Shown piece after piece: positions 3,895-43,576 of a DNA stretch of 47,638 nt. Each line of letters starts with the position of its first letter. Within the stretch, counting starts at the first letter, position 1. The translations under genes were made by a program, and so were the position numbers. The notes below the pieces were generated by a model, which searched no databases, had not been told where the DNA came from, and was given only the letters and a program-made list of their open reading frames with translations. Source of the stretch: a virus; IMG/VR virus record IMGVR_UViG_3300008450_000063, positions 1-47,638 of that record. One strand, 5' to 3'.

Positions 3895-6227
3895 TAGTAG
3901 ATCGCCATCACTCGGTCGACTTTAAAACTCGAGCGACCGTTCCACTCTTCATCCTTGCCTTGCATAACGACAATCTTTCCACGCGTAACGTTGTGGCAGT
4001 TGGCCCAGACAGAGGAGAACACTGTCGCAGAGCAGCGCCCCTTGTCTGGGTGGTCGACAGTAAGGAAAGCCATGAGATTGCCGTTTTTGTCAGTCTTGGT
4101 TCGAATTCCGTTGACAGTACCCATCAACACGGCATCGGGTGGATATTGGGATATCGTTTCCCGAATATCTGCGAAAGGATCCATGGAGATGAAAAAGCCA
4201 AGAATCTCGCGCTCTTTCTCCATGACTTCCTGCCTGCTAAGCAACTCCTCAGCCATCGGATGTTGCTTCTTCTTCAACTTGGTGTTGGCCTTGATAATAC
4301 GAGCATTAGTCAACAACCAAGCCCGGTCGTGGCCCTCAGACGAATCATCTGTAAGATCGTCAAAGGCACCGGCACCAATCAACGACTCAACGATGTTGAC
4401 TGGAACAGAGGGACAGCGCAGATAGAAATCCTTCAGAGAAAGGAAGGGGTCATCCTCGCGTCCTTCTGCAATCTTTATGGCCACAGAATCGCCAAGACCA
4501 GAAATGCCACCAAAACCAAAACGAACAGCACCGCTATCTCCTCGACCGCTAACATCGAAGTCCACTCCTGATTCATTAATATTCGGCGGAACCAACTTGA
4601 CTCCGGCGTTGCGCATCTCTCCGATGACCTGCGCAATCTTCTCCTTGTCATTCAGACTGCGTAGGAGAGCGGCATACCAAGCGACCGGGTAATTAGCCTT
4701 AAGCCACATACAGCGAAAAGTGATGATGCCATAGGCCACAGAGTGCGACTTGTTCCACGAATAGCGAGATGCAGCGGCAATGTTGTCCCACAAGAGGTGA
4801 GCCAAACGCCGGTCGCGGGCCTCGTCCCCGAAAGGCTGATTCGCAATCACACCATCAATAAACTTAGGCTCGAGTGCCTCCATGTCCTTCTTGCGCTTCT
4901 TGCCGATAGCCTTGCGCAGTTTGTCGGCCTCATTCTCGGTGAAACTAGCGAAATCCACCGCGATCCGCATGGCCTGTTCCTGATAGAGGATGATGCCTTG
5001 CGTAGCACCAAGAATCGGCTCCAAATTCGGGTGCAAATAGGTTAGTTCCACCCGATCGTGAAGCCGCTCTACATACAGGTCCACCATGTTGATCCGCTTG
5101 ATGGACTTGTCTTCTGGCTCGAGCGATGCATCTTCAGTGTCGACGAGTTTGCCGTCCTTGACCCACACGTACGCTTCCAGACAGCCGGGGCGGTAGAGAG
5201 CATTGAGGGCCGCTACATGCTCGAATTCCCACGGCTTCAACGACTGGCACAGTTTGGTGTAGCCCCAGCCCTCCAACTGGAAGACGCCAAGCGTGTCGCC
5301 AGCGGCGAAATGGGTCTTGGTGGCATCGTCCATCGTGTCGTGGTCAATGTCGTCGGGGTGAATACCCGCCCAGTCGCACGCATTCTGAATTATATCGAGC
5401 GTGCGGATGCCAAGGAAGTCGAGTTTGAGCAGGTTAAGCCGCTCGATGTCGTACATGTCCCAGCCGGTGACTAGCACTTCCCCATCGGGGGACGCCAACG
5501 GCACGAGGTCACGGGAGGTCGGGTCCATCACGAGGATGCCCGCTGCGTGGCGGGTCATGTGCTGATAACCACCGTCGGCAGCGAGGAGCGCCTCGGCGTA
5601 CTTCGGGTGCGCGTCCATCCATTCCTGAACCTTGGGCACTTCCTCGCAGACGAAGGCCAACTCGCGTGCAATCTTGCGGCCACCCAAGATCTGGGCCGGA
5701 ATCATGCCGCGCAATTCGTGAATCTCATCGTCGCTCATACCGGCAATGCGGCCGATGATCTCGATAGAAGCCTTCCACCCGTAGCGCTGAAACGCACCAA
5801 TCTGGATGGTCTGGTCGTGTCCGAACAAATCGCGGGCCAGATCGAGGACTTCCTGCCTGCGTACCTGCGAAAAGTCAACGTCCACGTCAGGGAGTTCCGA
5901 CCGCTCCTCAGACAGGAACCGACTAAACAGCAGATCGTACTTGAGTGGGTTGATCTGCGTGATGCCGAGAACGTAAGCAACCAGTGAACCACCAGATGAA
6001 CCACGACCGGGGCCAACCGGAATCCCCGCCTCTCTCACCCTTTGGATGAAGATGGATAGCATCAAGAAATAAGAAGCAAAGTCCTTGGTGCGAATGAGGT
6101 CAAGTTCAGTCTTTAGCCGGTCCACCACTCGCTGGTCGCTGGCCCAATCCTCCCCAAAGATGCGTCGCGCACCCATTTCGGTGCGGTACACAAGGAATTC
6201 ATATTGGGTGTCGGCTAGACTGGACAA
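3894..6227 (-). CDS. dnaE: DNA polymerase III alpha subunit, palm-to-OB half
   Basis: 777 aa corresponding to the palm, thumb, fingers and C-terminal OB-fold of bacterial DnaE. PVGPGRGSSGGSLVAY is at residues 70-85. The catalytic aspartates are D114 and D116 in PDVDVDF and the third is D270 in LKLDFLGIRTL, so the polymerase site is complete. The C-terminus has an OB-like segment (GTVNGIRTKTDKNGNLMAFL). The PHP domain is missing here and is encoded separately at 6869-7954. Together the two halves total 1138 aa, a normal DnaE length. The start is TTG 6227: in-frame stops lie just upstream and no earlier ATG exists. It overlaps the dCMP deaminase gene by 13 bases. Replicates phage DNA, presumably as a two-chain enzyme. 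Confidence 0.93.
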   Translation of the reverse strand: MSSLADTQYEFLVYRTEMGARRIFGEDWASDQRVVDRLKTELDLIRTKDFASYFLMLSIFIQRVREAGIPVGPGRGSSGGSLVAYVLGITQINPLKYDLLFSRFLSEERSELPDVDVDFSQVRRQEVLDLARDLFGHDQTIQIGAFQRYGWKASIEIIGRIAGMSDDEIHELRGMIPAQILGGRKIARELAFVCEEVPKVQEWMDAHPKYAEALLAADGGYQHMTRHAAGILVMDPTSRDLVPLASPDGEVLVTGWDMYDIERLNLLKLDFLGIRTLDIIQNACDWAGIHPDDIDHDTMDDATKTHFAAGDTLGVFQLEGWGYTKLCQSLKPWEFEHVAALNALYRPGCLEAYVWVKDGKLVDTEDASLEPEDKSIKRINMVDLYVERLHDRVELTYLHPNLEPILGATQGIILYQEQAMRIAVDFASFTENEADKLRKAIGKKRKKDMEALEPKFIDGVIANQPFGDEARDRRLAHLLWDNIAAASRYSWNKSHSVAYGIITFRCMWLKANYPVAWYAALLRSLNDKEKIAQVIGEMRNAGVKLVPPNINESGVDFDVSGRGDSGAVRFGFGGISGLGDSVAIKIAEGREDDPFLSLKDFYLRCPSVPVNIVESLIGAGAFDDLTDDSSEGHDRAWLLTNARIIKANTKLKKKQHPMAEELLSRQEVMEKEREILGFFISMDPFADIRETISQYPPDAVLMGTVNGIRTKTDKNGNLMAFLTVDHPDKGRCSATVFSSVWANCHNVTRGKIVVMQGKDEEWNGRSSFKVDRVMAIY

Positions 6228-6625
6228 ATTCGGACCGGAACTCCCGCCTCGAAGAGCAATTCAAGACCCCTATCGTCTCGGTACTTTTCGCCGTAGTATA
6301 CGTGCTGCACATCAGCATTCACCAACAACGCAGCACACACCACACAAGGATTGTGAGTAATATAGGCAATCTTAGGCCCGCGATTCGCTTTTGCAATCGC
6401 GTTAACTTCTGCATGAATGCACCCACAGCCACCGGGCGTGTTGTGATCACCTCGACAACTATTGGGACCGCCCTTGTACGAACCGTTATAACCTACAATA
6501 AACGTTTCAAGAGTAGGATCTGCAAACACCGCACCGACTTTAAGCCGCTGACAGGTTGAACGCTCTGCTGTCAGAAACGCCACCTTCATGAGGTATTCGT
6601 GTTTGCTTGGCCTAGTCTCGGGCAT
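6215..6625 (-). CDS. Deoxycytidylate (dCMP) deaminase
   Basis: 136 aa from ATG 6625, chosen because GAGG lies about 9 bases upstream; in-frame starts further up would overlap the neighbour more. Zinc-dependent CMP/dCMP deaminase signature: CIHAEVNAI (H71, catalytic E73) and NPCVVC (C94, C97). An extra Cys/His-rich loop (SCRGDHNTPGGCGC) resembles the second zinc site of T4-type enzymes. Converts dCMP to dUMP, feeding dTMP synthesis together with the dUTPase in the same operon. It lies between the two halves of dnaE and overlaps both neighbours. Confidence 0.9.
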   Translation of the reverse strand: MPETRPSKHEYLMKVAFLTAERSTCQRLKVGAVFADPTLETFIVGYNGSYKGGPNSCRGDHNTPGGCGCIHAEVNAIAKANRGPKIAYITHNPCVVCAALLVNADVQHVYYGEKYRDDRGLELLFEAGVPVRICPV

Positions 6626-6869
6626 AGAAAAAAGCCTCACCATTTTCCTCGCGCTTCTGGTCCTCATATGGACCAGTGAAACGACGGTAGTACTCCAACT
6701 TCAACGTCTCCAACACGCCAACAACTTCCGCATGCTTAGCATAGTTAACGATTCTGTGACTCAGATATTCGTCCACTACCTGCGACAGAACATATGCCAA
6801 CTCACCGGAATCTCGGGGAACTCCACCCTCGTCTAGCGCGGTTCGTACGTCTTGTCTAATATACGGCAT
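6612..6869 (-). CDS. Small conserved protein resembling DUF6899
   Basis: 85 aa, starting at ATG 6869, which overlaps the stop of the DnaE PHP gene (TAATG). MPYIRQDVRTALDEG, GELAYVLSQVVDEYL and VVGVLETLKLEYYRR with a PYEDQK.ENG tail match a small phage/environmental family I recall as DUF6899, whose function is unknown. No enzymatic motif is visible. It is wedged inside a split polymerase gene, so a role in replication or dNTP supply is possible but unproved. Confidence 0.8.
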   Translation of the reverse strand: MPYIRQDVRTALDEGGVPRDSGELAYVLSQVVDEYLSHRIVNYAKHAEVVGVLETLKLEYYRRFTGPYEDQKREENGEAFFYARD

Positions 6870-7954: not shown

Positions 7955-8135
7955 TGTAATAAGTGTAGATTGTGTTTTGAAGTCGTTCTAACTCTGTTAG
8001 CGCCATGCCCGCTATCAGCCTGTACTCATGAACAGCCACGTCGAGAATACGGGGGTCGTGAGGATTCTCTCGAACACGCTTGTTCAGGCGCTCGAAATCG
8101 TCATGTAACTTAGCGACCAGTGGATCCGAAGCCAT
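7941..8135 (-). CDS. Hypothetical 64-aa helical protein
   Basis: ATG 8135 (MASDPLVAKLHDDFERL) is preferred; longer in-frame versions start inside the dUTPase gene. It overlaps dUTPase by 26 bases and the DnaE PHP gene by 14. Predicted all-helical and charged, with no cysteines and no known motif. Coding is supported by the overlap-coupled position in a tight operon. Confidence 0.6.
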   Translation of the reverse strand: MASDPLVAKLHDDFERLNKRVRENPHDPRILDVAVHEYRLIAGMALTELERLQNTIYTYYNDRT

Positions 8136-8802
8136 TTGAGTCTCGTTCCGTCGGCATCCAAAACGAATCCACATAACTGATATTAATAGGCAGGCGAGGC
8201 TGAAATATAACCTGCGCAACTCGATCACCCTCTTCGATTGTAACGTCTTCGTCCGTCATGTTTAGCACCTGTGCAAACAGAGGACCACGATAACCAGCAT
8301 CAAGAATACCGTTGGGTATCATCAACAGCCTACGTGCGGTGGATGATCTGGCAGTAATCCAGCCAAAGATCGTCGGAGGCATCTGGAGCCTGACGTTCGA
8401 ATCCACCAAGGCAAACCCCTTAGCCGGAATCAGCGTAGACTTAGCGGAAATCAAATCGTGCCCCACGTCACCAAACAGCCTAGGCTCGTTCAGATTGTAG
8501 ACGCCATGACCAGCGTCGCCGTCTGAGGTCCAGTAGACAGTGTGTGCGAAGTACTTCATAGCATTGCGTGCTTCGACTCTATCTCTAGGCACTACCAGCA
8601 CGTAGTAACCAGCATCAAGCATCTGTTCCTCGAGCCTAAATTCCGGCATCTCGTGAACATAAACAGCCAGACGCATCTGGGGCAGGAAATATGGGATTAC
8701 ATGCCTATCAACAGTGCCATCAAGACTTGTTGACAAGATGTCCTGCATCACGGGACACCTAAACACCAGACTTAAATCACTGGCTTTGGTGTCGCTCACC
8801 AT
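8110..8802 (-). CDS. dut: dUTPase with a long N-terminal extension
   Basis: 230 aa from ATG 8802, which overlaps the kinase stop as ATGGTGA. The C-terminal part carries all five trimeric dUTPase motifs: 1 VGHDLIS (113-119), 2 ARSS (152-154), 3 NGILDAGYRG (164-173), 4 GDRVAQ (192-197) and 5 SNGFGSTG (222-229). It hydrolyses dUTP to dUMP, keeping uracil out of DNA and supplying dTMP synthesis. About 105 residues precede motif 1 where ordinary dUTPases have few. This extension (e.g. MRLAVYVHEMPEFRLEEQM) is not recognised. A related dCTP deaminase is less likely because motif 5 and the NGILDAGYRG loop are dUTPase-like. Confidence 0.88.
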   Translation of the reverse strand: MVSDTKASDLSLVFRCPVMQDILSTSLDGTVDRHVIPYFLPQMRLAVYVHEMPEFRLEEQMLDAGYYVLVVPRDRVEARNAMKYFAHTVYWTSDGDAGHGVYNLNEPRLFGDVGHDLISAKSTLIPAKGFALVDSNVRLQMPPTIFGWITARSSTARRLLMIPNGILDAGYRGPLFAQVLNMTDEDVTIEEGDRVAQVIFQPRLPINISYVDSFWMPTERDSNGFGSTGR

Positions 8803-9326
8803 TCGGCGCTGATCGCGATCTGACGACAGTGAATCTCGTCGTTGTTCGGCACCACCAAGTAATCCTCCCACACATCCCCTCCCTGAATTGCAGCCATTAC
8901 TTCACCCACAATGCGCTGGTGTTCGCTGATGCGGTTGCCGATGCTATCGGCGGTATCGTCCTGCCTGCCTCTGCCGATAAGACGCCGAATACAAGTCATG
9001 ATCGGTGTCTCCATGATCACGTGGAGAGGCCGATCGAGGATCTGCTCAGCCAACACCAACTGGGGCAGAGTCCTAGGAAAGCCCTCCATTACCACAACCA
9101 TGCCTGTCTCGCGAGCGTGATCTACTTGCTCATTGATGCGACGGCGCATTTCGTCTTCTGGTGCGAACGCTCCTGTCTCACGAGACTCCTTGGAGATCTC
9201 ACGAGCGATGTCGCCGGTCACAATCACGCAGCACTCAATCCCCATGTCCACTGCAAGAGATTGTAGGTTAGTGGCTAGAGTGCCTTTGCCAGCACCGGGC
9301 AGTCCAGTAATGCAAATATCTCTCAT
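8796..9326 (-). CDS. Adenylate-kinase-like (d)NMP kinase
   Basis: 176 aa, P-loop kinase. Walker A GLPGAGKGT is at residues 8-16, the EGFPRT nucleotide-binding motif is mid-protein, and the RGRQDD segment resembles the adenylate kinase lid. The lid domain is short. ATG 9326 follows the primase-helicase stop by one base. It phosphorylates a nucleoside monophosphate with ATP; the substrate is not readable from sequence. In a phage with a PurZ-like enzyme, a modified purine monophosphate is conceivable, but that is speculation. Confidence 0.85.
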   Translation of the reverse strand: MRDICITGLPGAGKGTLATNLQSLAVDMGIECCVIVTGDIAREISKESRETGAFAPEDEMRRRINEQVDHARETGMVVVMEGFPRTLPQLVLAEQILDRPLHVIMETPIMTCIRRLIGRGRQDDTADSIGNRISEHQRIVGEVMAAIQGGDVWEDYLVVPNNDEIHCRQIAISAEW

Positions 9327-9327
9327 G

Positions 9328-11964
9328 TCAACCTCGTGGCTTCAAGCGGTAAGATGGGTACTTCGCTCCGTTCTCAGACTCACGAATGATCTGTGTCGGA
9401 CGGTCGAAGTACATCGGGATTAGAATGTCTTTGTGCCCAGCGCGATTCTTGTCTACCAGCAGATCGACAACTGTAGCGTTGCCCTCAGCCTCACTCATAA
9501 TGAGGAAAGTGTCGGCTGTCTGTGCGATCTGGTATGAATCGCCAATGTTTTCCGCCGTGGGCCTCTTCTCCTTGGCCCCTTCACGGTTCAACTGCGCGGC
9601 GGTGACGAAGGCCACGTCCATGTGTCGAGCAATCTCCAACTTCATGGTCTTCGCGACTTCACCCATGACCTCATAGCGATTCATCCGCGCTTGCCCCTTA
9701 GATGGGGCCGTCAACTGTGCATAGTCATAGAACACGACCTGAATGTTGTGGCGGAGTTTGTAGCCTCGCACCATCAACTTCAAGTCTTCCATCGTCATGA
9801 AGTCGGGAGTCTCGATGTGCAGCGGAGAATTCATCAACTTCACAGCAGCCCGATTCAGGAGTTCTGACTCCGCATCATTGACCCGGCTCGAATCGATGCG
9901 GGAAGCGTCGATACCCGTCATCTGTGCCAGAAGCCGGGTGTGGTACTCGGTGTAATTCATCTCCAGCCCAATCAGCAGACCCGGCACGTTATTGTGGATG
10001 CAGATCTGGGCGACTAGGTTATTCAAGAAACTAGTCTTACCGACCGACTGAGCAGCGGCGATAACGTGGAGCCTTCCCTTTTGAATACCACGCAGCGTGC
10101 TGTTCAACTTGGGGAAGCAAGGGCCGATGTCTAGACCGATGATCTCGTCAGGATTGTCCCGGCGAGCCATGATCAGATCAATCGTCTCCTGAACCTTCTC
10201 TTCCTTGGACTTGGCCTCAGTCATACCCTTGCGCCAAAAAGTCAGCCCAACGACGTCGCTGGTGAAAGACGCTGACACCTGATCAGACGAAATATTCGCG
10301 TTCTCGAGTTCCTGCAACAGGATCTTAGCGCCATCCGAGACTCGACGACGGAAGGTGGCATCGATCATCTGCTCTAGTGGATAAGCGTCGGTAGTGAACC
10401 TCTCGACGATCGAATCAAGAAAGTCACGGTCAACGATTTCAGCGGCGTAGCCATGTCTATCGGCAAAGTCGGCCAAAGCCACGAAATCGTCCGTGGTCAC
10501 GTCACGCTCTGCAGCGTGATTCAGCAAACGCCAAAGCAACTGATGCCGAATATACTGGAAATCGCCGTCACTCACCCGGCTGGCTGTATCCAACCCCCAC
10601 TGCGGATCGCGCATGAACCTTGCCAGCACGGCCTGCTCGATGGTCAGCGTGGAGATCGGCGTCGCCTCGTCGATGAACAAATCGCTGACTTCAAGCGTCG
10701 GCATATTAAACCGTTCGGCCATCCAAGCAACGATCAACTTCTTGTGGTAGCCACCAGCCGAAGACATCTTTAGGCCATGAAGCGCTCTCTCAATGAAAGC
10801 GCGACGACCCGAGAGTGTGCTGATGTCAAACTCCTGCTCCAAACCACGCAAGAGATACTCGGTTGAATCAACAAGCCTGCCCGGTTCGTAACCGGTACCG
10901 GCAGGGGGCCGACTCAAAGCCAACATCAACGCTAGCGAGTCGCCGTTCGTTATCATGGCGTCTGGATCGGCACCATCGGGCAATTCGGCTACTGACAGGA
11001 TGATCGAAGGAGAATTCCACCGCCGTTGCGTAATAGTGCGAGTGGCGGTGCGCCCTCCTTCATCACCGTCAAGACAAAGGGTAGCCTCCTTGATGTGCCA
11101 CCGCTCCAACAGTCGCCACTGTTCGTCCGACATGGTAGCGCCCCGAAGACCCACCACGTTAGCGATACCCTCGCTGCACATAGCCATCACGTCGGTCTGG
11201 CCCTCGACCAAGATCAACTTGTGTCCGTAGTGTCGCAATTTGCCGCGAGCCTGACCGAGACCGAACAACACGTCTTTCTGGGAACCCGGCCACGAATTCG
11301 GATTGTTGCGAGATTCATGTGAATCGCTCATACTGCGGGTGGTCCAGCCCACCAATTCGCTCTCGTCATTGAAAAGCGGAATGATGATCATGTCATCAAA
11401 TTCCGTCTGTTCCCACTCGAGGGCGCTTCGCCAAACCAAATGACCGGGAGCCTTGCGCACGCCGAATTCCTGCAAAGTCTCTGGAGAGATGGACTTACCC
11501 GGCCACTCACTCAGGAAATCCAGTTGGCTGAGCGTGAACACTGCCTCACTGCGTGCCCTGTCTCGTTCAACCTCCTCCTCGGTCGGCTTTGCCAAATAAG
11601 GCTCAACATCAATGTCAGCAATCTGACAGATGTTGCGCACAGCCTCCATGAAGGACCAGCCAAAAAGTCTGCGTGCGAACGTGATTAGATCGCCGCCCGT
11701 CTTGACCGGCTCTCCCTCTTTGTTGTAGGAGACACACTTGGCCGACCGACAAAGCCAAACACCCTTGGCGTCGTTCACGTCAAGCGATGGGTCATGGTCG
11801 TCGTGGAAGGGACACAACATCTTCCACTCGCCACCCCCAGCCTGTTGCCATGGGACAGCCTTTAAGCCCTGACTGACAAACAACTTGTCGATCCCCTCTG
11901 AGAGGGGAAGTGTGTCATTAATCAGTTGACGGAGTTCATCTTGGTTCTTTAGTCGTCGCGCCAC
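9328..11964 (-). CDS. Primase-helicase fusion (DnaG-like zinc/TOPRIM plus DnaB-like)
   Basis: 878 aa, GTG start at 11964. Domains in order: CHC2-type zinc finger (C51, H54, C72, C77), TOPRIM primase catalytic core (E254 in LVEGQTDV, D299/D301 in LCLDGDEGG), a helical DnaB-N-like linker (about 365-560), and a RecA-fold hexameric helicase with Walker A QSVGKTS (639-645), D747 in VVFYDYAQL and motif-3 Gln in AAQLNREG. The architecture is like T7 gp4: one polypeptide unwinds the fork and lays primers. It sits in one operon with the split DnaE and the UvsW-like helicase. No separate DnaG is seen in the window. Confidence 0.93.
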   Translation of the reverse strand: MARRLKNQDELRQLINDTLPLSEGIDKLFVSQGLKAVPWQQAGGGEWKMLCPFHDDHDPSLDVNDAKGVWLCRSAKCVSYNKEGEPVKTGGDLITFARRLFGWSFMEAVRNICQIADIDVEPYLAKPTEEEVERDRARSEAVFTLSQLDFLSEWPGKSISPETLQEFGVRKAPGHLVWRSALEWEQTEFDDMIIIPLFNDESELVGWTTRSMSDSHESRNNPNSWPGSQKDVLFGLGQARGKLRHYGHKLILVEGQTDVMAMCSEGIANVVGLRGATMSDEQWRLLERWHIKEATLCLDGDEGGRTATRTITQRRWNSPSIILSVAELPDGADPDAMITNGDSLALMLALSRPPAGTGYEPGRLVDSTEYLLRGLEQEFDISTLSGRRAFIERALHGLKMSSAGGYHKKLIVAWMAERFNMPTLEVSDLFIDEATPISTLTIEQAVLARFMRDPQWGLDTASRVSDGDFQYIRHQLLWRLLNHAAERDVTTDDFVALADFADRHGYAAEIVDRDFLDSIVERFTTDAYPLEQMIDATFRRRVSDGAKILLQELENANISSDQVSASFTSDVVGLTFWRKGMTEAKSKEEKVQETIDLIMARRDNPDEIIGLDIGPCFPKLNSTLRGIQKGRLHVIAAAQSVGKTSFLNNLVAQICIHNNVPGLLIGLEMNYTEYHTRLLAQMTGIDASRIDSSRVNDAESELLNRAAVKLMNSPLHIETPDFMTMEDLKLMVRGYKLRHNIQVVFYDYAQLTAPSKGQARMNRYEVMGEVAKTMKLEIARHMDVAFVTAAQLNREGAKEKRPTAENIGDSYQIAQTADTFLIMSEAEGNATVVDLLVDKNRAGHKDILIPMYFDRPTQIIRESENGAKYPSYRLKPRG

Positions 11965-12170
11965 GCTTGCTCTCGTATCTCGTCCCAGTCGGTGTTGGCA
12001 GAGTCGATCATCTCCCGTATCTGCTTCCGGGCTTTCTCGCTATCAGCGATTTGCCCAGTGTAAGGCTTGGGACCAGCCTCACGCATAGAACGCCTAATCT
12101 CCTGCTCTCGCTTTTTGTGTTCTAGATATCCAGCGAGGGTAGTTAGGCGACGGGGGTCACTTAAATCCAT
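11949..12170 (-). CDS. Hypothetical 73-aa charged protein
   Basis: ATG 12170 is preferred (GGGAGAG 9 bases upstream); an in-frame GTG at 12188 would add six residues. The ATG overlaps the stop of the UvsW-like helicase, and its end overlaps the primase-helicase start. Highly charged and helical (EHKKREQEIRRSMREAG, TDWDEIREQAWRDD). No family recognised. The position between two helicases hints at a replisome accessory, which is inference. Confidence 0.6.
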   Translation of the reverse strand: MDLSDPRRLTTLAGYLEHKKREQEIRRSMREAGPKPYTGQIADSEKARKQIREMIDSANTDWDEIREQAWRDD

Positions 12171-13663
12171 ACTGCGCTGCTCTCCCACTCGGCATGCTCA
12201 ATTTTGCGCCGAGCCTTGGTGTGTGCGTCAAACCAACCGGGGGAAGTCACTGTACCCTCCCGGCCCTTCTTCTCCTTTACGTGTGCCCAAGAATCGTCGA
12301 AGTCAACTACGATTCCGTAGGTTTTATCTTTGTGAGGCCGACAGACACGGCCAATCCGCTGCAAATGCCGGGTGGACGACTTACCGCCACCAGCCAGCAC
12401 CAAAGCGTCTAGAGCCGGTACATCCACACCCATATCAGCAACAGAAGTAGCAATAACACAACGTACATCACCTCGACGGAGATCATTCAGGATCCTTTCG
12501 CGATCACCAGACTGATGGAACGCCTGGATTTCAGCCGGTGAGGACCCGGCAATAAACACCGACTTTGGAATCATCTTACGCAACTTCTCGCCGTGCTTTA
12601 ACTGCTTGACCAAGAGCAAGACAATACGGCCCTGATCAACCAAATCATTGACAGTCTTGACCACCAAATCATTGCGGTGTTTGTTATCCACCACAACAGA
12701 CCGATATGCCTTAGCCCAAGATTCGTAGGTCTTGCCCTCGGCATCAGGGGTGGGCTTGGTGTCAATGATTCGAAACATAGGGGGCACCAAGAAGCCCTCC
12801 TTAACCAGTGTCTCAACGCCTACTCGATAGACAATTGGACCCAAGGCCGCTTCGATCTTAATGTCGGCATTATCATCGCGCCATGGAGAAGCCGACAAGC
12901 CAACCTTAATGGCCACGTTCAAGTTGGTGGCGATGTTGTAGGCGGTGTCGGCGGCTACCACATGGCATTCGTCTACGATCAACAACCCGAGCGATTTCAG
13001 CCATTCGCCCATGTCTGATTCGACTTCGGTGAAATCATCATCGCCAATGTCGTCATACTTGAACTGGTAGTAGGTGGTATCGAGGACCTTTGCCATGGTT
13101 CGTGTCGTGGCGACCGTCACCGGCTGGGGATCGACAACACCAGCGCCCATCATACCCACTTTGGTTCCGAATGCCCACTCGAGAAATTCGCGGGTCTGAT
13201 ACAAAAGATCAATCGTCGGCACAAGGACGACCGCGGTGACACCGGCATCTTTGATGATTCGGGCGGCGATCACTGTCTTGCCCGATCCAGTGGGTGCCCG
13301 TACTACGCCGCCACCGTGCGCCAGAGCCGCCTCCGCTGCTTCCTGTTGGTACCAGCGCTCCTGTACCCCCTCATTAATAGAGAGCGAAAGAGGAGTGCCC
13401 TTCCGTGGCTCGGAGACTATATCCACCGTGTACGCGACCTTTTCCTTATCTAGGATGCCGGTCACACGGTCAATCAGGCCAACAGGAAACTGACAATCGT
13501 CGACGAACAGATTAATCCATCCGTCCCACTTCTTGTACTTATACGCAGGTTCGTACATGTAACCGGCAGGCCGATACCGCAACGCCCGCCGCAACACATG
13601 CAAAACACGGTGCGGAACATCGGTGATGACCGCATCGCGTTCTCTGACCTGAATAAACGCCAT
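12161..13663 (-). CDS. SF2 DNA helicase, UvsW-like
   Basis: 500 aa. An N-terminal domain of about 95 residues resembles the UvsW wedge domain. A superfamily 2 core follows: Q-motif ERWYQQEA (102-109), Walker A APTGSGKT (123-130), DECH box (231-234), SASP motif III (257-260) and motif VI QRIGRVCRP near residue 435. T4 UvsW unwinds branched DNA, drives fork regression and clears R-loops, so a role in recombination-dependent replication beside RecA and the RuvC-like nuclease fits. Starts at ATG 13663, one base after the upstream gene ends. Confidence 0.88.
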   Translation of the reverse strand: MAFIQVRERDAVITDVPHRVLHVLRRALRYRPAGYMYEPAYKYKKWDGWINLFVDDCQFPVGLIDRVTGILDKEKVAYTVDIVSEPRKGTPLSLSINEGVQERWYQQEAAEAALAHGGGVVRAPTGSGKTVIAARIIKDAGVTAVVLVPTIDLLYQTREFLEWAFGTKVGMMGAGVVDPQPVTVATTRTMAKVLDTTYYQFKYDDIGDDDFTEVESDMGEWLKSLGLLIVDECHVVAADTAYNIATNLNVAIKVGLSASPWRDDNADIKIEAALGPIVYRVGVETLVKEGFLVPPMFRIIDTKPTPDAEGKTYESWAKAYRSVVVDNKHRNDLVVKTVNDLVDQGRIVLLLVKQLKHGEKLRKMIPKSVFIAGSSPAEIQAFHQSGDRERILNDLRRGDVRCVIATSVADMGVDVPALDALVLAGGGKSSTRHLQRIGRVCRPHKDKTYGIVVDFDDSWAHVKEKKGREGTVTSPGWFDAHTKARRKIEHAEWESSAVWI

Positions 13664-14062
13664 TTAGAGGCGGTGCCTCGTCATCTGCGCTTCCTCGGCC
13701 ACACCAAGTGCAAGTGTGATCTCCCGGCTAGCACCCTGATAACGCAATTTGGCGCTCGATGCCGCACGCTCAGCCGCATCCCGGCGCTGACGCGCTTCCC
13801 GGTAACGAGAATCAGACTGGCCATACAGTTCCTTACATCTGTCGGTGAGCCAGTCGAACACGGCAAAACAGTGATTAAACCAAGCGTATACGTCCGGCAT
13901 CTCGTCCAGCGTGCGCGACCACCGATCCAACTTCTGGTCGCGAGTCTCGCCCTGCTTGGCCTCGTAGGGCTGCATCATCGCGTCGATGTGGTCCAACAAA
14001 TCGAACATGGTGATGTTACGCAGGTCGTGGCTCGAAATCCTTTTAAGCGTAGACTGTTCCAT
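13664..14062 (-). CDS. Hypothetical 132-aa helical protein
   Basis: ATG 14062, overlapping the end of the Cys-rich gene by 20 bases. Predicted almost entirely helical, with a probable coiled coil in the C-terminal half (RYREARQRRDAAERAASSAK). One Cys pair in NHCFAVFDWLTDRCKEL. No family recognised. It is the second gene downstream of the 14.7-kb promoter and directly upstream of the UvsW-like helicase. Confidence 0.65.
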   Translation of the reverse strand: MEQSTLKRISSHDLRNITMFDLLDHIDAMMQPYEAKQGETRDQKLDRWSRTLDEMPDVYAWFNHCFAVFDWLTDRCKELYGQSDSRYREARQRRDAAERAASSAKLRYQGASREITLALGVAEEAQMTRHRL

Positions 14063-14681
14063 CCTCTTCCTTCAGCGTCTTCGGCTCGAGGTTGTCAATG
14101 TGGCGGGCCTTCAGCCTCAGGAAATTCCGCGCCACCGTGATGCTCTCTGGCCGGTTCATCATGCTCAGGCGCTCGTCTACGCGAGCGTCATGGTAAACCC
14201 TCTCCCAGTCCAGCGCCCGCAACTTCTCCAGCGCCGCCTCAAAGTGGGGCCAAGCCAGTTCGGAATCGTCGGTCCTCTTGGAGTGACAGAACCAGCACTC
14301 GTCCGACGTTCCCGACACCATAATCCGACCGAAGCCAGAATGGTCGTCAGGGCAATACCAAGTGATAGCCGTGGGCGGATTCACCAAGATGCTCACCTCA
14401 AACTCGCTCATGCCGTAATAGGCCGGAGCCAACTGGGTGGGCTTCTTAACCGTCCGCTTGATCTCCTCGGTAGTCTTCTTCTTGCCCTTCTCGAGGAACT
14501 TCTCCCAGCCCTTAGCCTTCAGCGTGGCAAGGGCCTCCTTGTCGCCGTCACGCCCAGCCTTTACGAGCGCCGACTTGTGCTTGGCGTCATGTCCACCCGG
14601 CGCATAGTTGGCATACGTGCCATCCTTGCGCTCCTTCAAGGGAGTACCGCAACCGCAACCGCATTCTGGAATAGGGGCCAT
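14043..14681 (-). CDS. Cys-rich protein with CGCGCG N-terminus
   Basis: 212 aa, ATG 14681 behind a strong AAAGGAG site. Two candidate metal centres: an N-terminal ECGCGCGTPL followed by YAPGGHDAKH, and a mid-protein CPDDH ... CWFC pair (about residues 109-132). The N-terminal CGCGCG...GHDAKHKSAL pattern recalls small proteins I have seen in actinobacterial phages (memory, not checked). The middle is lysine-rich. It is the first gene of its own transcription unit under a near-consensus promoter. Function unknown; a zinc-binding DNA or regulatory protein is plausible. Confidence 0.7.
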   Translation of the reverse strand: MAPIPECGCGCGTPLKERKDGTYANYAPGGHDAKHKSALVKAGRDGDKEALATLKAKGWEKFLEKGKKKTTEEIKRTVKKPTQLAPAYYGMSEFEVSILVNPPTAITWYCPDDHSGFGRIMVSGTSDECWFCHSKRTDDSELAWPHFEAALEKLRALDWERVYHDARVDERLSMMNRPESITVARNFLRLKARHIDNLEPKTLKEEDGTVYA

Positions 14682-15199: not shown

Positions 15200-16231
15200 C
15201 TATCGGTAGACTTGCTTATCTAGGATGTCCCTATATTCCATGATGCCAGTCGTGGCTGCATACCGGCCATTCCACTTTGCCACTGACTCGCCAGTTTCCT
15301 TGTCAATGAAGTGGAACCACGAACTAACCTGCTTGATGTAGCCAAGGGTTAGCGCAAGTTCTAGGTAAGAATCGCCAACGTCCACACCGGGGGTGACTTC
15401 ACCGTATCCGGTGTGGTTGCCCTCGCGGTAGTAGAAATTGAAGAAAGAGGTGAAGTGTGGTGCGCTCACCTTGTTCTTCTTTACAGTGATCTTTACCTTG
15501 TGTCCTAACTGCACACCATTGTCGTCCTTGAACCGCTCAGCCACACGTACGTCTAGACGAACGGACGAATAGAACGGCAGGGCACGCCCACCGGGCTGGT
15601 ACTCAGGATTGCCAAAAGAGACACCGGGGCGGGTACGGATCTGATTGTTGAAGATGACGATCGCGTTTGAATCATGAACGATGGGGGTCAACTTGCGAAG
15701 ACCCTGCGACATCAACTTGGCCAGAGGAGCCATGTGATTGTCGGCGTAGTCACCGTCGAGTTCCTGCTCAGTGACAAGCGCGGCCACAGAGTCAATACCA
15801 ATCACGTCATAGTCGTTCGACCGGCAAAGCAACTCAGCCATCTCAAATGCCTGAAATCCATTGTCCGGAAGACCAACCCGCAAAGCCTCGTAATCCACAC
15901 CCGCAATCTCCATGAAAGAAGGAGATAACGCTTGCTCAGCGTCAATGATCGCACCCTTGCCATCAGCCCTCTGGGCACCGGCAACAAAGAGGCCAATGAT
16001 GAGCGTCTTGCCTGTACCCTCGGGGCCATAGATTTCGACCACACGACCACGGGGCAGACCCCCGACGCCGAGAGCATAATCAAGGGTCGGCACGCCCGAC
16101 GGAATGACTGAGACATCAAAACCGTCCATGCGCTCCGACCCCGTGACCAACGCACCCTCGCCAAACAACTCGAGGGCCTTGCTGTCTAGGTCAAAGTTAC
16201 CTGACGGCTTTGCCTTCTTAACTTTTGCCAT
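15200..16231 (-). CDS. recA: RecA recombinase
   Basis: 343 aa, full length for RecA. Walker A GPEGTGKT (69-76), IDAEQAL with catalytic E99, Walker B with D147 in VIGIDSVAAL, loop L1, and FNNQIRTRPGVSFGNPEY with Q197 preceding the L2 region. It catalyses homologous pairing and strand exchange, supporting recombination-dependent replication with the UvsW-like helicase and ssDNA-binding protein. ATG 16231 overlaps the HTH gene stop (TAATG), so the two are probably translationally coupled. C-terminus is shorter and more basic than in E. coli RecA. Confidence 0.95.
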   Translation of the reverse strand: MAKVKKAKPSGNFDLDSKALELFGEGALVTGSERMDGFDVSVIPSGVPTLDYALGVGGLPRGRVVEIYGPEGTGKTLIIGLFVAGAQRADGKGAIIDAEQALSPSFMEIAGVDYEALRVGLPDNGFQAFEMAELLCRSNDYDVIGIDSVAALVTEQELDGDYADNHMAPLAKLMSQGLRKLTPIVHDSNAIVIFNNQIRTRPGVSFGNPEYQPGGRALPFYSSVRLDVRVAERFKDDNGVQLGHKVKITVKKNKVSAPHFTSFFNFYYREGNHTGYGEVTPGVDVGDSYLELALTLGYIKQVSSWFHFIDKETGESVAKWNGRYAATTGIMEYRDILDKQVYR

Positions 16232-16538: not shown

Positions 16539-17669
16539 CTAACCGACAATTTCTGCCAAGATAGCCTCTAGTTCGGAACGCTCACACTTAGCAACGTCGT
16601 GCTTAACCGGGTTGGTGTTCTTCTCGAAAAGGCTAATCACTTTCCGGAAGTCCGACCACTGCTCCTTGGTCAATTCTGCCTTGATCTTGGAGCGCAACTC
16701 GTCGTCGCTAATGCTTTCGTCTGCCGGTAGCAAAGTCTCCTGCTCTGCCTTAACCGGCGCTGCGTCCTTCTTCTTGGTGGCAGGCGACGCCTTGACCTTC
16801 TCGACTTCAGAGGCAGTCGCCTCTGAACTCTCGTCAGTCGAAGGAGTGGTGTCGTCGTCACCTGCCACCACACTAGGGTTTGAGGACTCGCCCTCCCCAA
16901 TCGTAAACGAGTTGGGGTCATACTCGCCGTTTGTGGCGAGCGTCTTCAAGGCGATGTAGATCTCACGGCCCACATCGCCATTCTTTTCGCACTGACCAAT
17001 GAACCAATCGGCCCACCCCGGCTCGTCGGCAACCAGATCGCCAAGCGGCATGCCCTTGTGCTTGCCGAACGGCATCTCCATTGCCTTGGCCTCGTCGATC
17101 GTGTAAGTGGGCAACTTGATAGAGTCGAAGTCAATCTCCAACTCCTTCAAGAGGCGCAGCACTTCCTCGTCAGACGGAGCCTGATCGAAAAAGGAAAGGT
17201 CGTGCAGATCGTCAAGGCTGATCTTCTCGTCAAACGGCGACGTGTCCATGCGAATGACGGAGTAACCCGTGTCGCGACCAGAACCCGTGCGAGTAATCAG
17301 AACGTCGGAGGCCTGAATATCGATCCCCGACTCCTTCCACGCGTTAAACTCGTTGAAGATCTGGGGACCGCCAACGAGGACACAGATGCGGTTCTCATCA
17401 TAGGACCAGACATTCACCGCGTTGCGACGGGTGGAACGGAAGCCCTTACGGCTCAGCAGATCGCCATTGCGCTGAACCACAAAACGAACGATGTTAGAAT
17501 CGCGCTCGTTCTGGAACCGAAGGGTATACTGTCGCCATGTCTCGACAAACGACTCGAGGATGCGAATGCGATGCTTTTCGCGGGCGCGGAGGTCGAGAAT
17601 GCGGTTGTCGCCCCCACCACTACTGGATGTCTGCTTCTCAGCGGACTCACCAAACGGAATACGTGCCAA
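16539..17669 (-). CDS. ssDNA-binding-like protein with an FGKHKG domain
   Basis: 376 aa. TTG start supported by AAGGAG 7 bases upstream. The N-terminal part (35-145) resembles the gp32-type ssDNA-binding fold, including the typical LITRTGSGRDTGYSV at 124-138. Residues 198-225 (MPFGKHKGMPLGDL...WADWFI) match the short FGK-x-KG domain seen in DUF3820 and exonuclease X C-termini. A low-complexity Ser/Thr/Glu/Lys linker (about 255-318) and a helical C-terminus follow. Coating of ssDNA during replication and recombination fits its place between PurZ and RecA genes. No canonical acidic SSB tail is seen. Confidence 0.75.
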   Translation of the reverse strand: MARIPFGESAEKQTSSSGGGDNRILDLRAREKHRIRILESFVETWRQYTLRFQNERDSNIVRFVVQRNGDLLSRKGFRSTRRNAVNVWSYDENRICVLVGGPQIFNEFNAWKESGIDIQASDVLITRTGSGRDTGYSVIRMDTSPFDEKISLDDLHDLSFFDQAPSDEEVLRLLKELEIDFDSIKLPTYTIDEAKAMEMPFGKHKGMPLGDLVADEPGWADWFIGQCEKNGDVGREIYIALKTLATNGEYDPNSFTIGEGESSNPSVVAGDDDTTPSTDESSEATASEVEKVKASPATKKKDAAPVKAEQETLLPADESISDDELRSKIKAELTKEQWSDFRKVISLFEKNTNPVKHDVAKCERSELEAILAEIVG

Positions 17670-17728: not shown

Positions 17729-18799
17729 CTAACTAGCGACACCGTATAGGTAGTCGCGAACGGGAACCACAGACTGCGGGCCGGTTCCAAAGCCCATCAA
17801 CTCGACACCAATGCGCGAGAATCGCCCGATGAACGCATCCGCCTTGTCCATCTCGTCGCGGTCGAGGCCCTCAAATGACTCTTTGCCGTACAGTTCCGGA
17901 ATCTCGTAATCTAGGAACGTCACGTATGCGTGGGTCATACCATTCAGCAGAGCCGAATACTCCATCTGCTGACTGGACCACGTAGCAATGCGGCGCTTCA
18001 ACTTCGTCACGGTCGTCTTCTCAGGCTCGACACCGAGAGTGTCGAAATCAATCTCCTCTGAGTCAGCGAAGAACGGCCCGCTATTACCTGCGACACGAAT
18101 TGGGAACGTACGGAACACACCGATCGACCGGTCTAGCCTGTTGGCCGGAATACCAGCGTCGGCCATCAACCCGGTAGCGGTGGTGTTGCGACTGGTTGTA
18201 TAAGGGAACTGGCCCGTGGTCAGCGAAAGCCCCGTCCCCTGTGTGCCCTCGAGCAGAATAGAATCTTCCTGCGACAGGATGTACGGAACGTCTGCGGCGT
18301 AAATAGCCAGTTCGGCTACCTCGTCCACGGTGACACAACTAGCCGAACGCATCACCCGGTCGCTGGTAGCAGTACCAATACCTTCCCGCGCAATGGTCGA
18401 GGTGGACCCTATGCGGTCGGCTAGGTCTGTGCGACCCTCACGCTCGATCTGGTCCTCGGTGATGATATGGGCACGATAGTCGATGAAAAGATTCTCGGAG
18501 GGGATACCAGTCTCCGCAATCTCTCGCTGCAGGATCTCCAGAGAGATCACAGCACCGGGACCGATGTAGCACTTGACACTCTCGCCGGTCTTGTGTGCCC
18601 AAGCAGCCATAGGCAACTGCTGAGACACCAACTTTACACCATTGATCCACCCGGTGTGACCGGCATTGGCCGCGCCGACCCGCACGTGGTTTCGGTAGTG
18701 CTGCCAGATCTTTGACACTACCAAGCCCTTGCCCTCAGAGCCATACTGGCCCCCAATAACGGCAACTACGCCTTCGTCGTGCACTCTCTCGCCTTTCAT
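17729..18799 (-). CDS. purZ: PurZ-like adenylosuccinate synthetase
   Basis: 356 aa, shorter than bacterial PurA (about 430) and in the range of phage PurZ. Family motifs: GGQYGSEGKG (16-25), NAGHT with catalytic His48, EGTQGT (184-189), TTSRNTTATG (201-210) and a C-terminal GTGPQ. The catalytic Asp of PurA in GDEGKGK is Ser21 here, the substitution described for PurZ, which joins aspartate to dGMP to make the precursor of 2-aminoadenine deoxynucleotide. ATG 18799 overlaps the sigma-like gene by 4 bases (ATGA). DatZ and MazZ partners are not visible in the window. A PurA-like role for host IMP is the alternative. Confidence 0.85.
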   Translation of the reverse strand: MKGERVHDEGVVAVIGGQYGSEGKGLVVSKIWQHYRNHVRVGAANAGHTGWINGVKLVSQQLPMAAWAHKTGESVKCYIGPGAVISLEILQREIAETGIPSENLFIDYRAHIITEDQIEREGRTDLADRIGSTSTIAREGIGTATSDRVMRSASCVTVDEVAELAIYAADVPYILSQEDSILLEGTQGTGLSLTTGQFPYTTSRNTTATGLMADAGIPANRLDRSIGVFRTFPIRVAGNSGPFFADSEEIDFDTLGVEPEKTTVTKLKRRIATWSSQQMEYSALLNGMTHAYVTFLDYEIPELYGKESFEGLDRDEMDKADAFIGRFSRIGVELMGFGTGPQSVVPVRDYLYGVAS

Positions 18800-19425
18800 G
18801 CTGCGGTGTACTGGGTGTATGCGCTTTGCAAACGATTCATGATTTGGGACACGCGTCCGGCTGAGACGCCAAACCGGACTGCCAACTGCGCCCGGTCCAC
18901 ATCGGCCACGTACCCAAGGAGGATTGCTCGGTCCCTATCGTCCCTGAGTGTTCCTAAGAACTCCTCCACGAACACAGAAGTGTGATCGTCCACCACGACT
19001 CGCGCTGTGGTTTCGTGGTCAACTGCTGCGTCTATAAATGATTTAGATTCGATGGATTCGCAGCCAGCGCCACACTGCTTGCAACAGCGCTGGTTTCTGG
19101 GCTTGATTGGCATGCGATGACCGCACTCCTCACAAGTCATGAACGCGTGCCTGCGCACCGTCATGCCGATCCAATCGCGAATCCGGTTCATGGTGTACCA
19201 CTTGATGTAGTACAGAATGTCACCAAGACCTTTGTCCTGATCGACGGCCTCTAATACGTAAACCCACGTCTGCTGCTTAACGTCTTCACGGTCGTACAAG
19301 CGATTGTCACGAACCAAGGACATCACAGCGGGGAGGGTGTACTCATAGCCGATTGTCGCCAACTCGTCGCGAGCGGTAGCGTTCTTCTTTGCCACTGCCC
19401 TCAATGTCTGTGCCCTGCAACGCAT
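18796..19425 (-). CDS. Sigma-factor-like protein with inserted zinc ribbon
   Basis: 209 aa, ATG 19425 behind a perfect AGGAGG. Residues 42-92 resemble sigma region 2 (YDREDVKQQTWVYVLEA ... IRDWIG). A zinc ribbon follows (C98, C101, C114/C115, C118, C122). Residues 150-203 resemble region 4, ending in a helix-turn-helix (RAQLAVRFGVSAGRVSQIM). Such a protein could direct host RNA polymerase to late phage promoters. Region 3 seems replaced by the ribbon and an acidic stretch. An ordinary HTH DNA-binding protein is the alternative. Third gene of the early operon, upstream of purZ. Confidence 0.7.
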   Translation of the reverse strand: MRCRAQTLRAVAKKNATARDELATIGYEYTLPAVMSLVRDNRLYDREDVKQQTWVYVLEAVDQDKGLGDILYYIKWYTMNRIRDWIGMTVRRHAFMTCEECGHRMPIKPRNQRCCKQCGAGCESIESKSFIDAAVDHETTARVVVDDHTSVFVEEFLGTLRDDRDRAILLGYVADVDRAQLAVRFGVSAGRVSQIMNRLQSAYTQYTAA

Positions 19426-19435
19426 TTCCGGCCTC

Positions 19436-20386
19436 CTACTCTAAAATGGTAAGGCCCAACTCGGCCTCGCACTGCGGCGCAAAGTCACAGTGCTTGCAAG
19501 TGTATGAATAATTAGGCATGTAAAGCCCCTGCCCGTTGATCACAGCCTCTAGATGCTTTCGGCGCTCAACGAGCATGGGGTAGTGCTTGTCGGGGTCTAC
19601 CTTCGCCTTCACGGTTTCGCCTCGCCTGAGGATGCGAAAGTGAACTTCGTCCAGAGAAAGGCCAAACCCAACGTTAATCGCCAAGTGGTAGATCACCGCT
19701 TGGTAGAAGATCTCCATTGCCGACGGAGGGTTCTGCGACGTCTTCCAGTCAATGAGAATTGGCTCGACTTCGCCTTCTTTGGTGGTCGGACCGTAGAGGT
19801 CAATCCGCCCACGCCAGACTAGATCATCGTACTCAAAATGAAAAGAACTCTCAACAAGCAACGGCTTGGGTCGTTCAATCCATTCTACTTCAAGATCAGC
19901 ACAAATTCGCTGAGCCACCAACCACGACTTCAGCGGTGGTTCAGTCTTCGACCAACGGATAGACGCTTCATTGGCCTGCAACCACTTAGCAGTCTTTTCG
20001 CTGGCTTCGGCCAAAGCCTGTGCTTCCCTAGACTCCTTGTACTCTTTCGTCGCCGTAGGATTGCTGACGTTGGGTCGAGTCAGACGGATGGCGGCGATGA
20101 CCTTCTCAGTCTCATGGTAGCACTTGATCTCTTCCAACACTTTGGACTTCAGCCCGAGGGGCAACTGCTCCTCCCAGACTTCATCCATGCACTGCCACAA
20201 CCTACCCGGCTTTAAACGCTCCGGATCGTCGAGTTCAAACCACGCCTCGATACCATTGTGCACCGTGTTGCCCAGAATGAACGCACCCGCGTCCTTCCCG
20301 CGCATATTGTGGACATACTGATATTGAAATTTTTTGCCACACCCGGTAGCCAGAGCCAACCGGGAGGCCGTGTCTATAGCAGGCAT
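19436..20386 (-). CDS. Cas4/AddB-like PD-(D/E)XK nuclease with Fe-S cysteines
   Basis: 316 aa from ATG 20386 (MPAIDTASRL); a TTG at 20434 would add 16 residues deep into the upstream gene. RecB-family nuclease motifs in order: H43, D196 in GRIDLYG, D213-x-K215 in LIDWKTS and QAVIY (229-233). C16 plus C297, C300 and C306 form the 4Fe-4S pattern of AddB and Cas4. It would trim DNA ends to make 3' ssDNA for RecA. No CRISPR array or other cas gene is present, so a phage recombination exonuclease is meant. Confidence 0.85.
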   Translation of the reverse strand: MPAIDTASRLALATGCGKKFQYQYVHNMRGKDAGAFILGNTVHNGIEAWFELDDPERLKPGRLWQCMDEVWEEQLPLGLKSKVLEEIKCYHETEKVIAAIRLTRPNVSNPTATKEYKESREAQALAEASEKTAKWLQANEASIRWSKTEPPLKSWLVAQRICADLEVEWIERPKPLLVESSFHFEYDDLVWRGRIDLYGPTTKEGEVEPILIDWKTSQNPPSAMEIFYQAVIYHLAINVGFGLSLDEVHFRILRRGETVKAKVDPDKHYPMLVERRKHLEAVINGQGLYMPNYSYTCKHCDFAPQCEAELGLTILE

Positions 20387-20790
20387 GAAAATGCGGCAAT
20401 TTCGTTCTGTACCAGTTGGGCCATATCTTCCCAACTATAGGCATACTCGTCCGCTACATAATCAATGTAGATCGAAACGGGCAGGTCCTTGTCGTACAAA
20501 ACGAACACGGGCTTCTGGTGTTCGTGAGCGATCCACATCTCGATCGGGATTCCGACCGAACGCTTACGCATGTCAGCCACAAACACGTCGCAAGCCTCGA
20601 TGGCAGCATGGTGGATAGAAATGGCCCCAGCCATGTCCATCATGGTCATGCTCTCAACTGAAGGGGCCACGAACGTGGTGGTGGCGTCGTAAACGATCGC
20701 CTTTTTGCCGATATCCGCGACGAACAGTTCCCTGTCGTCGCTGTTGTTGGTCCCGTAATCAATGGGACCGGCAAGGTAAACAACCGACAT
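20374..20790 (-). CDS. Nucleoside 2-deoxyribosyltransferase-like protein
   Basis: 138 aa. VYLAGPI at residues 4-10, CDVFVADM (67-74) and SVGIPIEMWIAHEHQKPV (78-95) match the NDT/RCL fold, with E84 at the position of the catalytic glutamate. Members transfer deoxyribose between bases or hydrolyse deoxynucleoside monophosphates. The substrate here cannot be read. It is the first gene after the early promoter, with a roughly 100-base leader and no strong ribosome site before ATG 20790. Its company, PurZ-like enzyme and dNMP enzymes, suggests nucleotide-pool remodelling. Confidence 0.8.
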   Translation of the reverse strand: MSVVYLAGPIDYGTNNSDDRELFVADIGKKAIVYDATTTFVAPSVESMTMMDMAGAISIHHAAIEACDVFVADMRKRSVGIPIEMWIAHEHQKPVFVLYDKDLPVSIYIDYVADEYAYSWEDMAQLVQNEIAAFSCLL

Positions 20791-41983: not shown

Positions 41984-43576
41984 TTACATCTCGCAGACAC
42001 CACCAACACAATCCACCTGCTGCTTGTCCTCGATGGTGGGCAGATCCTCGTCGTTGTCATGCTTGCCGCTGTGATCCTTGATGACGACCTTCACACGGCT
42101 GTTCTTGCGAAGAATAGTAATGCCCTTTGCTCCACCCTCGTAGGCCGTGACAAGAGCCTCCTCAACCTGCTCCGGCGTGGTGGCCTCCGGAGCGTTGCAA
42201 GTCTTGGACACAGCCTGATCGGTGTGAGCCTGAATTGCCGTGAGGATATCGATATGCTGCTGGAGCGAGATCTCGTCTGTCGTGACGAAGTACTCACTGT
42301 CACGAAGTGGGTGCTTGTCGATAAACGGCTCGGTACGACCAAGAATGTACGACTCCTGCACACCGGCATAGATCGGCTCAATACCGAACGAGCACTTAGC
42401 AAGTCGCGAAATAGTGCCGGTAGGAGCCACAACCTGCACCACGATGTTGCGGCGCTCAGGAAGACCGGGCTGCCAGCCGGGATAAAACCCACGCTCCTGC
42501 CCCAACTTGGCCGACTCGTCCCACGACACCAACTGAACGAACTCCATCCACTCCTTGGCAAGGCGGATGGACTCTGGCGAGCCATAAATTACCTTGTTCA
42601 GAATAAACGCGTCGGCCAAGCCCATAATCCCGACGCCGATCTTGCGATACTTCTGGTGCTGGGCCTTGATCTGCGGAAGCGGGTAATCCTGCTTGTCCAC
42701 GACATTATCAAGCATGCGAGTGAGGATGCGCACTGTGCGCTCGAGGCTTGCAAAGTCCATCTTGCCTTCGTACATGTGCTTGGCCAAGTTAACTGAACCA
42801 AGGACACACGCCTCGTTCGGAAGAAGCGGCACCTCGCCGCACGGGTTGGTCGCCTCGATCTTCTCGGGGTGCGGAGCCGCATTGTTGATGGAGTCTAGGA
42901 ATAGCAGCCCCGGCTCACCATTAAGCCAAGCCCCGTAGACGATCTGCTCCCACAACTCCTTGCCACCATTGGTGCGGTCGTACTGCATAAACTTGTCGCT
43001 CATACCGACAGAAATATTGAAGTTGTAGATAGGCGACTTGTCGCTGTTGCCCTCAAACTCCTGATTCTTGCAGGTAATAAACTCCATGATGTCTGGGTGA
43101 TCCACAGGAAGGACGCCCATGTTGGCACCCCAACGCACACCACCCTGCGACACCTGACCGATAACCTCAGAGTACAGACGAAGCCATCCGACGGGACCCA
43201 GCATAGCCGGACGCCCGTTGGACTGAATCAGCGAACCAGCGGGTCGAATACGCCCAAACGAGAAGCCCGTGCCTCCACCAGTGGCATGGACTCGAGTGGC
43301 ATTGTCGAGCGTGCGCATAATAGCCGCGTCACCCTCGTTGAGCGAATCGTCAACCGGAAGCACGAAACAAGCCGAACCCTGCTGCCGCGCTCGGCCCGCA
43401 TTAGCAATCGCCGGGGTATTCGGTAGAGCCTTAAGTTCTGACATCATTTCGAACTGATCTTCGCGCTCTTTGTCGTTAGAAGACCAAGCACGAGCGGTGC
43501 GATCCCACACCTGACTCTCGTCCTGCTCACCATCATGCATGTAGCGCTGTTCTAGAATTGCAGTACGAGAGTCCAA
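41984..43576 (-). CDS. nrdJ: Class II (adenosylcobalamin) ribonucleotide reductase
   Basis: 530 aa. TTG start at 43576, supported by AAAGGAG. Active-site pattern: C70 in GSACFVLP, C246 in NPCGE (thiyl radical site), C257 in NEACVLGSVNL, and a C-terminal redox pair C523/C528 in DCVGGVCEM. N-terminal LPNTPAIANAGR is typical of NrdJ. There is no ATP cone and no NrdB gene alongside, as expected for the B12-dependent class. It makes deoxyribonucleotides for replication. The gene stands alone between structural genes with its own terminator. Confidence 0.85.
   Translation of the reverse strand: MDSRTAILEQRYMHDGEQDESQVWDRTARAWSSNDKEREDQFEMMSELKALPNTPAIANAGRARQQGSACFVLPVDDSLNEGDAAIMRTLDNATRVHATGGGTGFSFGRIRPAGSLIQSNGRPAMLGPVGWLRLYSEVIGQVSQGGVRWGANMGVLPVDHPDIMEFITCKNQEFEGNSDKSPIYNFNISVGMSDKFMQYDRTNGGKELWEQIVYGAWLNGEPGLLFLDSINNAAPHPEKIEATNPCGEVPLLPNEACVLGSVNLAKHMYEGKMDFASLERTVRILTRMLDNVVDKQDYPLPQIKAQHQKYRKIGVGIMGLADAFILNKVIYGSPESIRLAKEWMEFVQLVSWDESAKLGQERGFYPGWQPGLPERRNIVVQVVAPTGTISRLAKCSFGIEPIYAGVQESYILGRTEPFIDKHPLRDSEYFVTTDEISLQQHIDILTAIQAHTDQAVSKTCNAPEATTPEQVEEALVTAYEGGAKGITILRKNSRVKVVIKDHSGKHDNDEDLPTIEDKQQVDCVGGVCEM

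Follow-up and report, generated by a model that had tools for sequence, protein, structure and literature searches.

A PurZ-type synthetase and a split DnaE polymerase in the replication block of an uncultured phage suggest a route to 2-aminoadenine DNA

Gene content of the replication block

The window, by which we mean the whole stretch of 47,638 nucleotides analysed here (IMG/VR record IMGVR_UViG_3300008450_000063), is a linear and incomplete record, and the gene absences given below hold for the record or for its contiguous block only. Its replication (early) block extends contiguously and in a single direction from approximately 3.9 to 20.8 kb and includes the purZ-type gene (Table 1). 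The early-operon location assigned to this gene in the initial annotation, which gave no strand, agrees with its ATGA overlap with the upstream sigma-like gene and with the common direction of the block. The order NDT-RecB-sigma-PurZ-SSB-RecA is common to the window and to a relative, L225 (IMG/VR record 3300044724_008842), while the order of PurZ, RecA, primase-helicase, Dut and DnaE is matched in three other PurZ records (L037, L272 and L273). In L037, an intein or a homing endonuclease, recognised by a LAGLIDADG match, appears to be inserted into the RecA gene (12162-14201).

Table 1. Coordinates of the window features discussed in the text
Feature	Position	Strand	Remarks
DnaE polymerase piece (family C NTPase/palm, fingers, HHH), 777 aa	3894..6227	minus	PDVDVDF catalytic motif
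dCMP deaminase gene	6215..6667	minus	between the two DnaE pieces
85-aa ORF	6612-6869		also between the DnaE pieces
DnaE N-terminal piece (PHP domain), 361 aa	6869..7954	minus	
DutZ-type dUTPase homologue	8110..8802	minus	likely ATG at 8802 (listed ORF to 8871); overlaps the NMP kinase gene
Adenylate-kinase-like NMP kinase	8796..9326	minus	7 bp overlap with the DutZ-type gene
Primase-DnaB-type helicase	9328..11964	minus	
RecA-like recombinase	15200..16231	minus	
SSB-like protein	16539..17669	minus	next gene downstream of purZ; order shared by L225 and L021
PurZ-type synthetase, 356 aa, ATG start	17729..18799	minus	Ser21 in place of the catalytic Asp
Weakly sigma-factor-like protein	18796..19425	minus	directly upstream of purZ; ATGA overlap
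PD-(D/E)XK nuclease (RecB-like)	19436..20434	minus	
DmtZ-like protein, NDT/DNPH1 fold, 138 aa	20374..20790	minus	
B12-dependent ribonucleotide reductase NrdJ (dNTP supply)	41984..43576	minus	

A phmmer search of the window revealed no DatZ, MazZ, PurB, PolA or PrimPol, and thus neither a DatZ nor a MazZ gene near purZ. No match was obtained with tRNA and Rfam scans, with a DNA megablast search in which the left half of the window was compared with phages, or with PADLOC for the PurZ-type, Dut and NDT proteins of the window; single-protein scans of viral contigs with the PurZ-type and Dut proteins also gave no match, so that alignment-based scans were needed. A closely related contig (L089), 98.8% identical over 5 kb, runs at least 6 kb past the left end of the window, and this additional stretch encodes a portal protein and other late-type genes, among which a Dps/ferritin-like ORF (8225-8758 of L089) was noticed by eye. 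A PolA or DatZ gene could lie outside the incomplete window record. Homologues of the NMP kinase are present in two PurZ records (L016 and L021), and it is possible that the window kinase acts on dZMP or dGMP.

The synthetase and its Dut and DmtZ-like companions

The PurZ-type synthetase is predicted to join dGMP and aspartate, yielding N6-succino-2-amino-dAMP. Its motif GGQYGSEGKG occupies residues 16 to 25 and puts Ser at position 21, where PurA has its catalytic Asp (Asp13), a residue that is 99% conserved in PurA (PMC12884076). The other features initially described for this protein were borne out as well: His48 is kept within an intact NAGH motif, the length is some 75 to 90 aa below that of bacterial PurA (about 80 had been proposed), and the fold is intact as judged from a match to Pfam PF00709 (E = 2e-39) and from AlphaFold/Foldseek matches to PurA and PurZ structures. 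In addition, Thr133, Arg151, Gln187, Thr202, Arg235 and Arg269-270 align with the PurA/PurZ active site, and the product matches PHROG 1211, "2-aminooxy adenylosuccinate synthetase", with an E value of 3e-62. The AlphaFold model, for which 30 phage and window sequences served as input, reached a pLDDT of 90; its best Foldseek entries were the short archaeal PurA of Pyrococcus (5k7x, E = 2e-30), PurZ of phiVC8 (6fko, 2e-26), PurZ0 (7vf6, 3e-26) and PurZ of S-2L (7odx, 1e-25). Pyrococcus PurA was the best phmmer match, too. With the NCBIfam PurZ model NF038379, the protein scored 212.8 bits against a curated database cut-off of 300, approximately equal to its score with the archaeal PurA model; we took the score below the cut-off as a sign of divergence and therefore did not file the protein inside the named PurZ or PurZ0 subfamilies. 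It does share with phage PurZ proteins the string PIRVAGNSGP, in which GNSGP is inserted after PIRV, and a TTVTK loop, which reads GTVTGR or GTTTGR in PurA. Comparison with the 75% identical relative in L225 gave a pN/pS of 0.26 for the purZ-type gene, and Ser at the Asp position is conserved, under purifying selection, in both L225 and a second relative, the viral contig L009.

The dUTPase homologue consists of an N-terminal extension of about 105 aa, for which no match was found (8500-8802), and a dUTPase domain with an ARSST motif. DutZ of the PurZ0 phages, itself homologous to dUTPase, hydrolyses both dATP and dGTP (PMC12884076), and the window protein is likewise predicted to be a dATP/dGTP diphosphatase. 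It matches 971 phage records, the best 60 of which all belong to Microbacterium, Arthrobacter, Streptomyces (Hiyaa-like) and Micrococcus phage groups, all four of which yielded PurZ0-type genes here; scores were 81 to 104 bits in the listed and spread rows of these 60, with other phages first appearing at 73 bits. The window Dut has five of the six residues that separate the Duts of PurZ phages from canonical ones, in particular RSST for PRSG, and reads LF at the ELF-type motif 3 of DutZ. In the Dut tree, 44 Duts of PurZ phages, the window protein included, split at 99/98 from 16 others, namely 15 of cellular or other-phage origin and one (L058) from a PurZ contig. An AU test holding the window Dut with the canonical Duts did not discriminate, since this constraint also fits the window as a basal branch of DutZ, which it may represent.

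The product of the NDT-type gene was matched by a DmtZ profile, built without the window protein, at 46.8 bits (E = 1e-12). Its model (pLDDT 87) resembles in Foldseek a bacterial 2-deoxyribosyltransferase (NDT; 6evs) and human DNPH1. The active-site residues Tyr5, Asp11 and Glu84 correspond to Tyr6, Asp12 and Glu103 of DmtZ; the catalytic Asn77 of DmtZ is replaced by His and its Pro57 by Ala, for which reason we call the protein DmtZ-like only. The L225 copy, 53% identical, has the same His. The DmtZ of PurZ0 phages, a member of the NDT family, hydrolyses dAMP and is able to pass deoxyribose-5-phosphate on to Z, and the DutZ and DmtZ types together make up a published Z-nucleotide toolkit (PMC12884076).

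The polymerase and the proposed route to Z-DNA

A search of the window record for family A polymerase (PF00476; DpoZ-type PolA) was negative, and phmmer found no match to the polymerase/primase of Ghobes in the window. The replicase in view is a family C DnaE encoded in two pieces (Table 1). Whole-record searches of 39 PurZ records disclosed DnaE without PolA in three (L021, L034 and L037), each with DnaE in one piece, so that the PHP/polymerase split is not general; two more PurZ records (L272 and L273) have DnaE with no PolA found. The window is thus joined by at least five uncultured records, of up to 103 kb, that pair PurZ with DnaE and show no PolA. An RSST-type Dut is present in four of these five (all except L021), and also in L045, a short contig with its polymerase only partly in view. 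By comparison, PolA lies within about 10 kb in 47 of the best 80 PurZ loci of IMG/VR. Z phages are reported usually to encode PolA and PrimPol (PMC8599892), with PolA in all except S-2L (PMC8342488), where a non-selective PrimPol together with dATP removal suffices (PMC8342488, PMC8599892). In the open-access literature, we found no report of PurZ with DNA polymerase III that was relevant by title and abstract, and the DnaE-based polymerase appears to be the new part of the pathway.

The best explanation of these sequence data is that the window belongs to a phage with a 2-aminoadenine (Z) genome, made via a route with a split DnaE replicase, a reading to which we give a probability of roughly 0.78. 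It is built on the observed sequence, fold, motifs, gene order and homology, from which we infer all enzyme activities, the extent of A-to-Z replacement in the phage DNA and the copying of Z-DNA by DnaE. Very probably, the phage makes dZTP. In the proposed route, the DutZ-type protein would strip dATP and dGTP to dAMP and dGMP, thereby depleting dATP and supplying dGMP, which the PurZ-type enzyme would join with aspartate to give dSMP; host PurB would convert dSMP into dZMP, and the phage NMP kinase, host kinases or both would raise dZMP to dZTP. The DmtZ-like protein would destroy dAMP and may recycle the Z base into dZMP. The two-gene DnaE, rather than a Z-selective PolA (DpoZ), would then copy the genome with Z opposite T, and would incorporate Z because dATP is scarce, as with PrimPol in S-2L. 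We see slightly better than even odds for a whole class of Z-genome phages that replicate with a family C DnaE (split here into PHP and polymerase pieces), in which discrimination between A and Z is left to DutZ-type and DmtZ-like control of the pools instead of DpoZ, or in which DnaE itself is Z-selective.

An ordinary Z-DNA route, with a DpoZ-type PolA encoded in genome sequence that the record lacks and DnaE in a secondary role, seems unlikely to us. The incompleteness of the linear record would allow for it, and the sister contig L009 has both PolA and PrimPol; against this, DnaE takes the place in the contiguous block that PolA has in others, the 6 kb by which L089 extends further to the left are occupied by the portal and other late-type genes, and the five DnaE records described above show the same pairing without PolA.

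Ser-type paralogues and comparison with known systems

Scanning genome contigs with Ser-type patterns yielded 390 relatives. We retained 79 loci, which for the most part are short Ser-type paralogues from the genomes of bacteria and archaea. A full-length PurA was also present in 15 of the 16 genomes checked among the Ser-type carriers, and the Asp-to-Ser change alone is therefore insufficient for a Z-DNA call. From this change, the initial annotation had argued that the phage makes dZTP and may replace A by Z; the conclusion stands by way of the DutZ-type and DmtZ-like genes, the phage-type motifs and the conserved gene order, but the argument from the substitution alone does not.

The cellular Ser-type enzymes are often fusions of about 540 aa, which combine a P-loop kinase-like domain with the synthetase (e.g. 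L096, L110, L115, L129, L164 and L166), and the fused genes share an operon with a DUF7002 protein; among the 79 kept loci, the kinase part was seen in 68 and DUF7002 in 63. In a subset, an upstream protein combines an ImmA/IrrE-type peptidase with a macro-like region and matches capP in PADLOC (E = 1e-21 to 7e-24), with DarG-like matches in addition. This fused kinase-synthetase/DUF7002 operon is a candidate new system. In L103, a second cellular PurZ-like gene of the Ser type, which is unfused, is immediately preceded by the gene (7891-9972) for a Nostoc protein that has both an RNase H-like and a kinase-like domain.

In a synthetase tree of 85 rows, the window enzyme and that of L009 form a separate branch (100/99), outside the clade of Asp-type PurA (100/99), as the annotation as a PurZ-like enzyme had led one to expect. 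The best tree sets this branch beside phiVC8-type PurZ (91/84) and then PurZ0 (83/83), with deep nodes that are not firm: AU tests rejected neither a grouping of the window enzyme with PurZ0 (p = 0.48) nor a position as sister to the Asp-type PurA clade (p = 0.37) nor a grouping with the fused cellular Ser-type clade (p = 0.19). The sequence details (PIRVAGNSGP and TTVTK) favour a place with the phage group.

These data bear on whether the window enzyme could be a PurZ-like paralogue with a role other than Z-DNA, like the cellular Ser-type enzymes, in nucleotide signalling or defence evasion. The large cellular Ser-type clade beside PurA, much of it fused to the kinase-like domain in an operon, and the AU value of 0.19 speak in favour of such a role, which we nevertheless regard as distinctly improbable, as the window protein is unfused and located in a replication block, has the phage-type TTVTK at the site where the fused cellular enzymes show TSTTK, is accompanied by DutZ-type and DmtZ-like genes, and has phage PurZ and PurZ0 as its neighbours in the best tree. 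An auxiliary PurA that boosts adenine supply (IMP to adenylosuccinate), with a neutral or divergent Ser, was rejected as highly improbable, since, despite Pyrococcus PurA as best phmmer and Foldseek match and equal NCBIfam scores for PurA and PurZ, a nearly invariant catalytic Asp is lost, the Ser is kept in L225 and L009 under purifying selection, and candidates for a DutZ-type dATPase and a DmtZ-like dAMP hydrolase are unexpected in a phage that raises ATP/dATP.

If the Z-genome reading with DnaE is true, a family C replicase, the type responsible for copying the chromosomes of bacteria, is able to operate on Z-DNA, and Z specificity is perhaps set by nucleotide pools, which bears on the building of Z-DNA cells. 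This would also point to a Z toolkit that is passed among replication modules unrelated to one another. Z genomes are not to be called from Asp-to-Ser alone.

Among the systems compared, L225 has a 75% identical PurZ-type protein, the same gene order and the same His in its DmtZ-like protein; it is a 17.5 kb fragment, with the polymerase region outside the record. The PurZ0 phages (Gordonia phage Ghobes, Arthrobacter phage Wayne) share with the window the Ser-type synthetase and the DutZ and DmtZ types, and neither they nor the window have DatZ or MazZ; as in the window, DmtZ and DutZ are separate genes in Ghobes. However, the PurZ0 phages have DpoZ (PolA) in place of DnaE, their DmtZ has the Asn77 and Pro57 that the DmtZ-like protein lacks, and the best tree does not place the window synthetase within the PurZ0 clade. 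Wayne Dut carries a DmtZ domain at the position of the N-terminal extension, whereas that of the window Dut is, as judged from its sequence, no NDT domain. The PurZ phages of the phiVC8 and SH-Ab 15497 type also have a Ser-type synthetase, and join the window enzyme in the best tree at a support (91/84) that is not conclusive; they differ in that no DatZ, MazZ or PolA was found in the window. Like cyanophage S-2L, finally, the window phage would rely on pool depletion and on a polymerase for which no Z selectivity is known, with PrimPol, DatZ and MazZ serving in S-2L, and DnaE, the DutZ-type protein and the DmtZ-like protein in the window.
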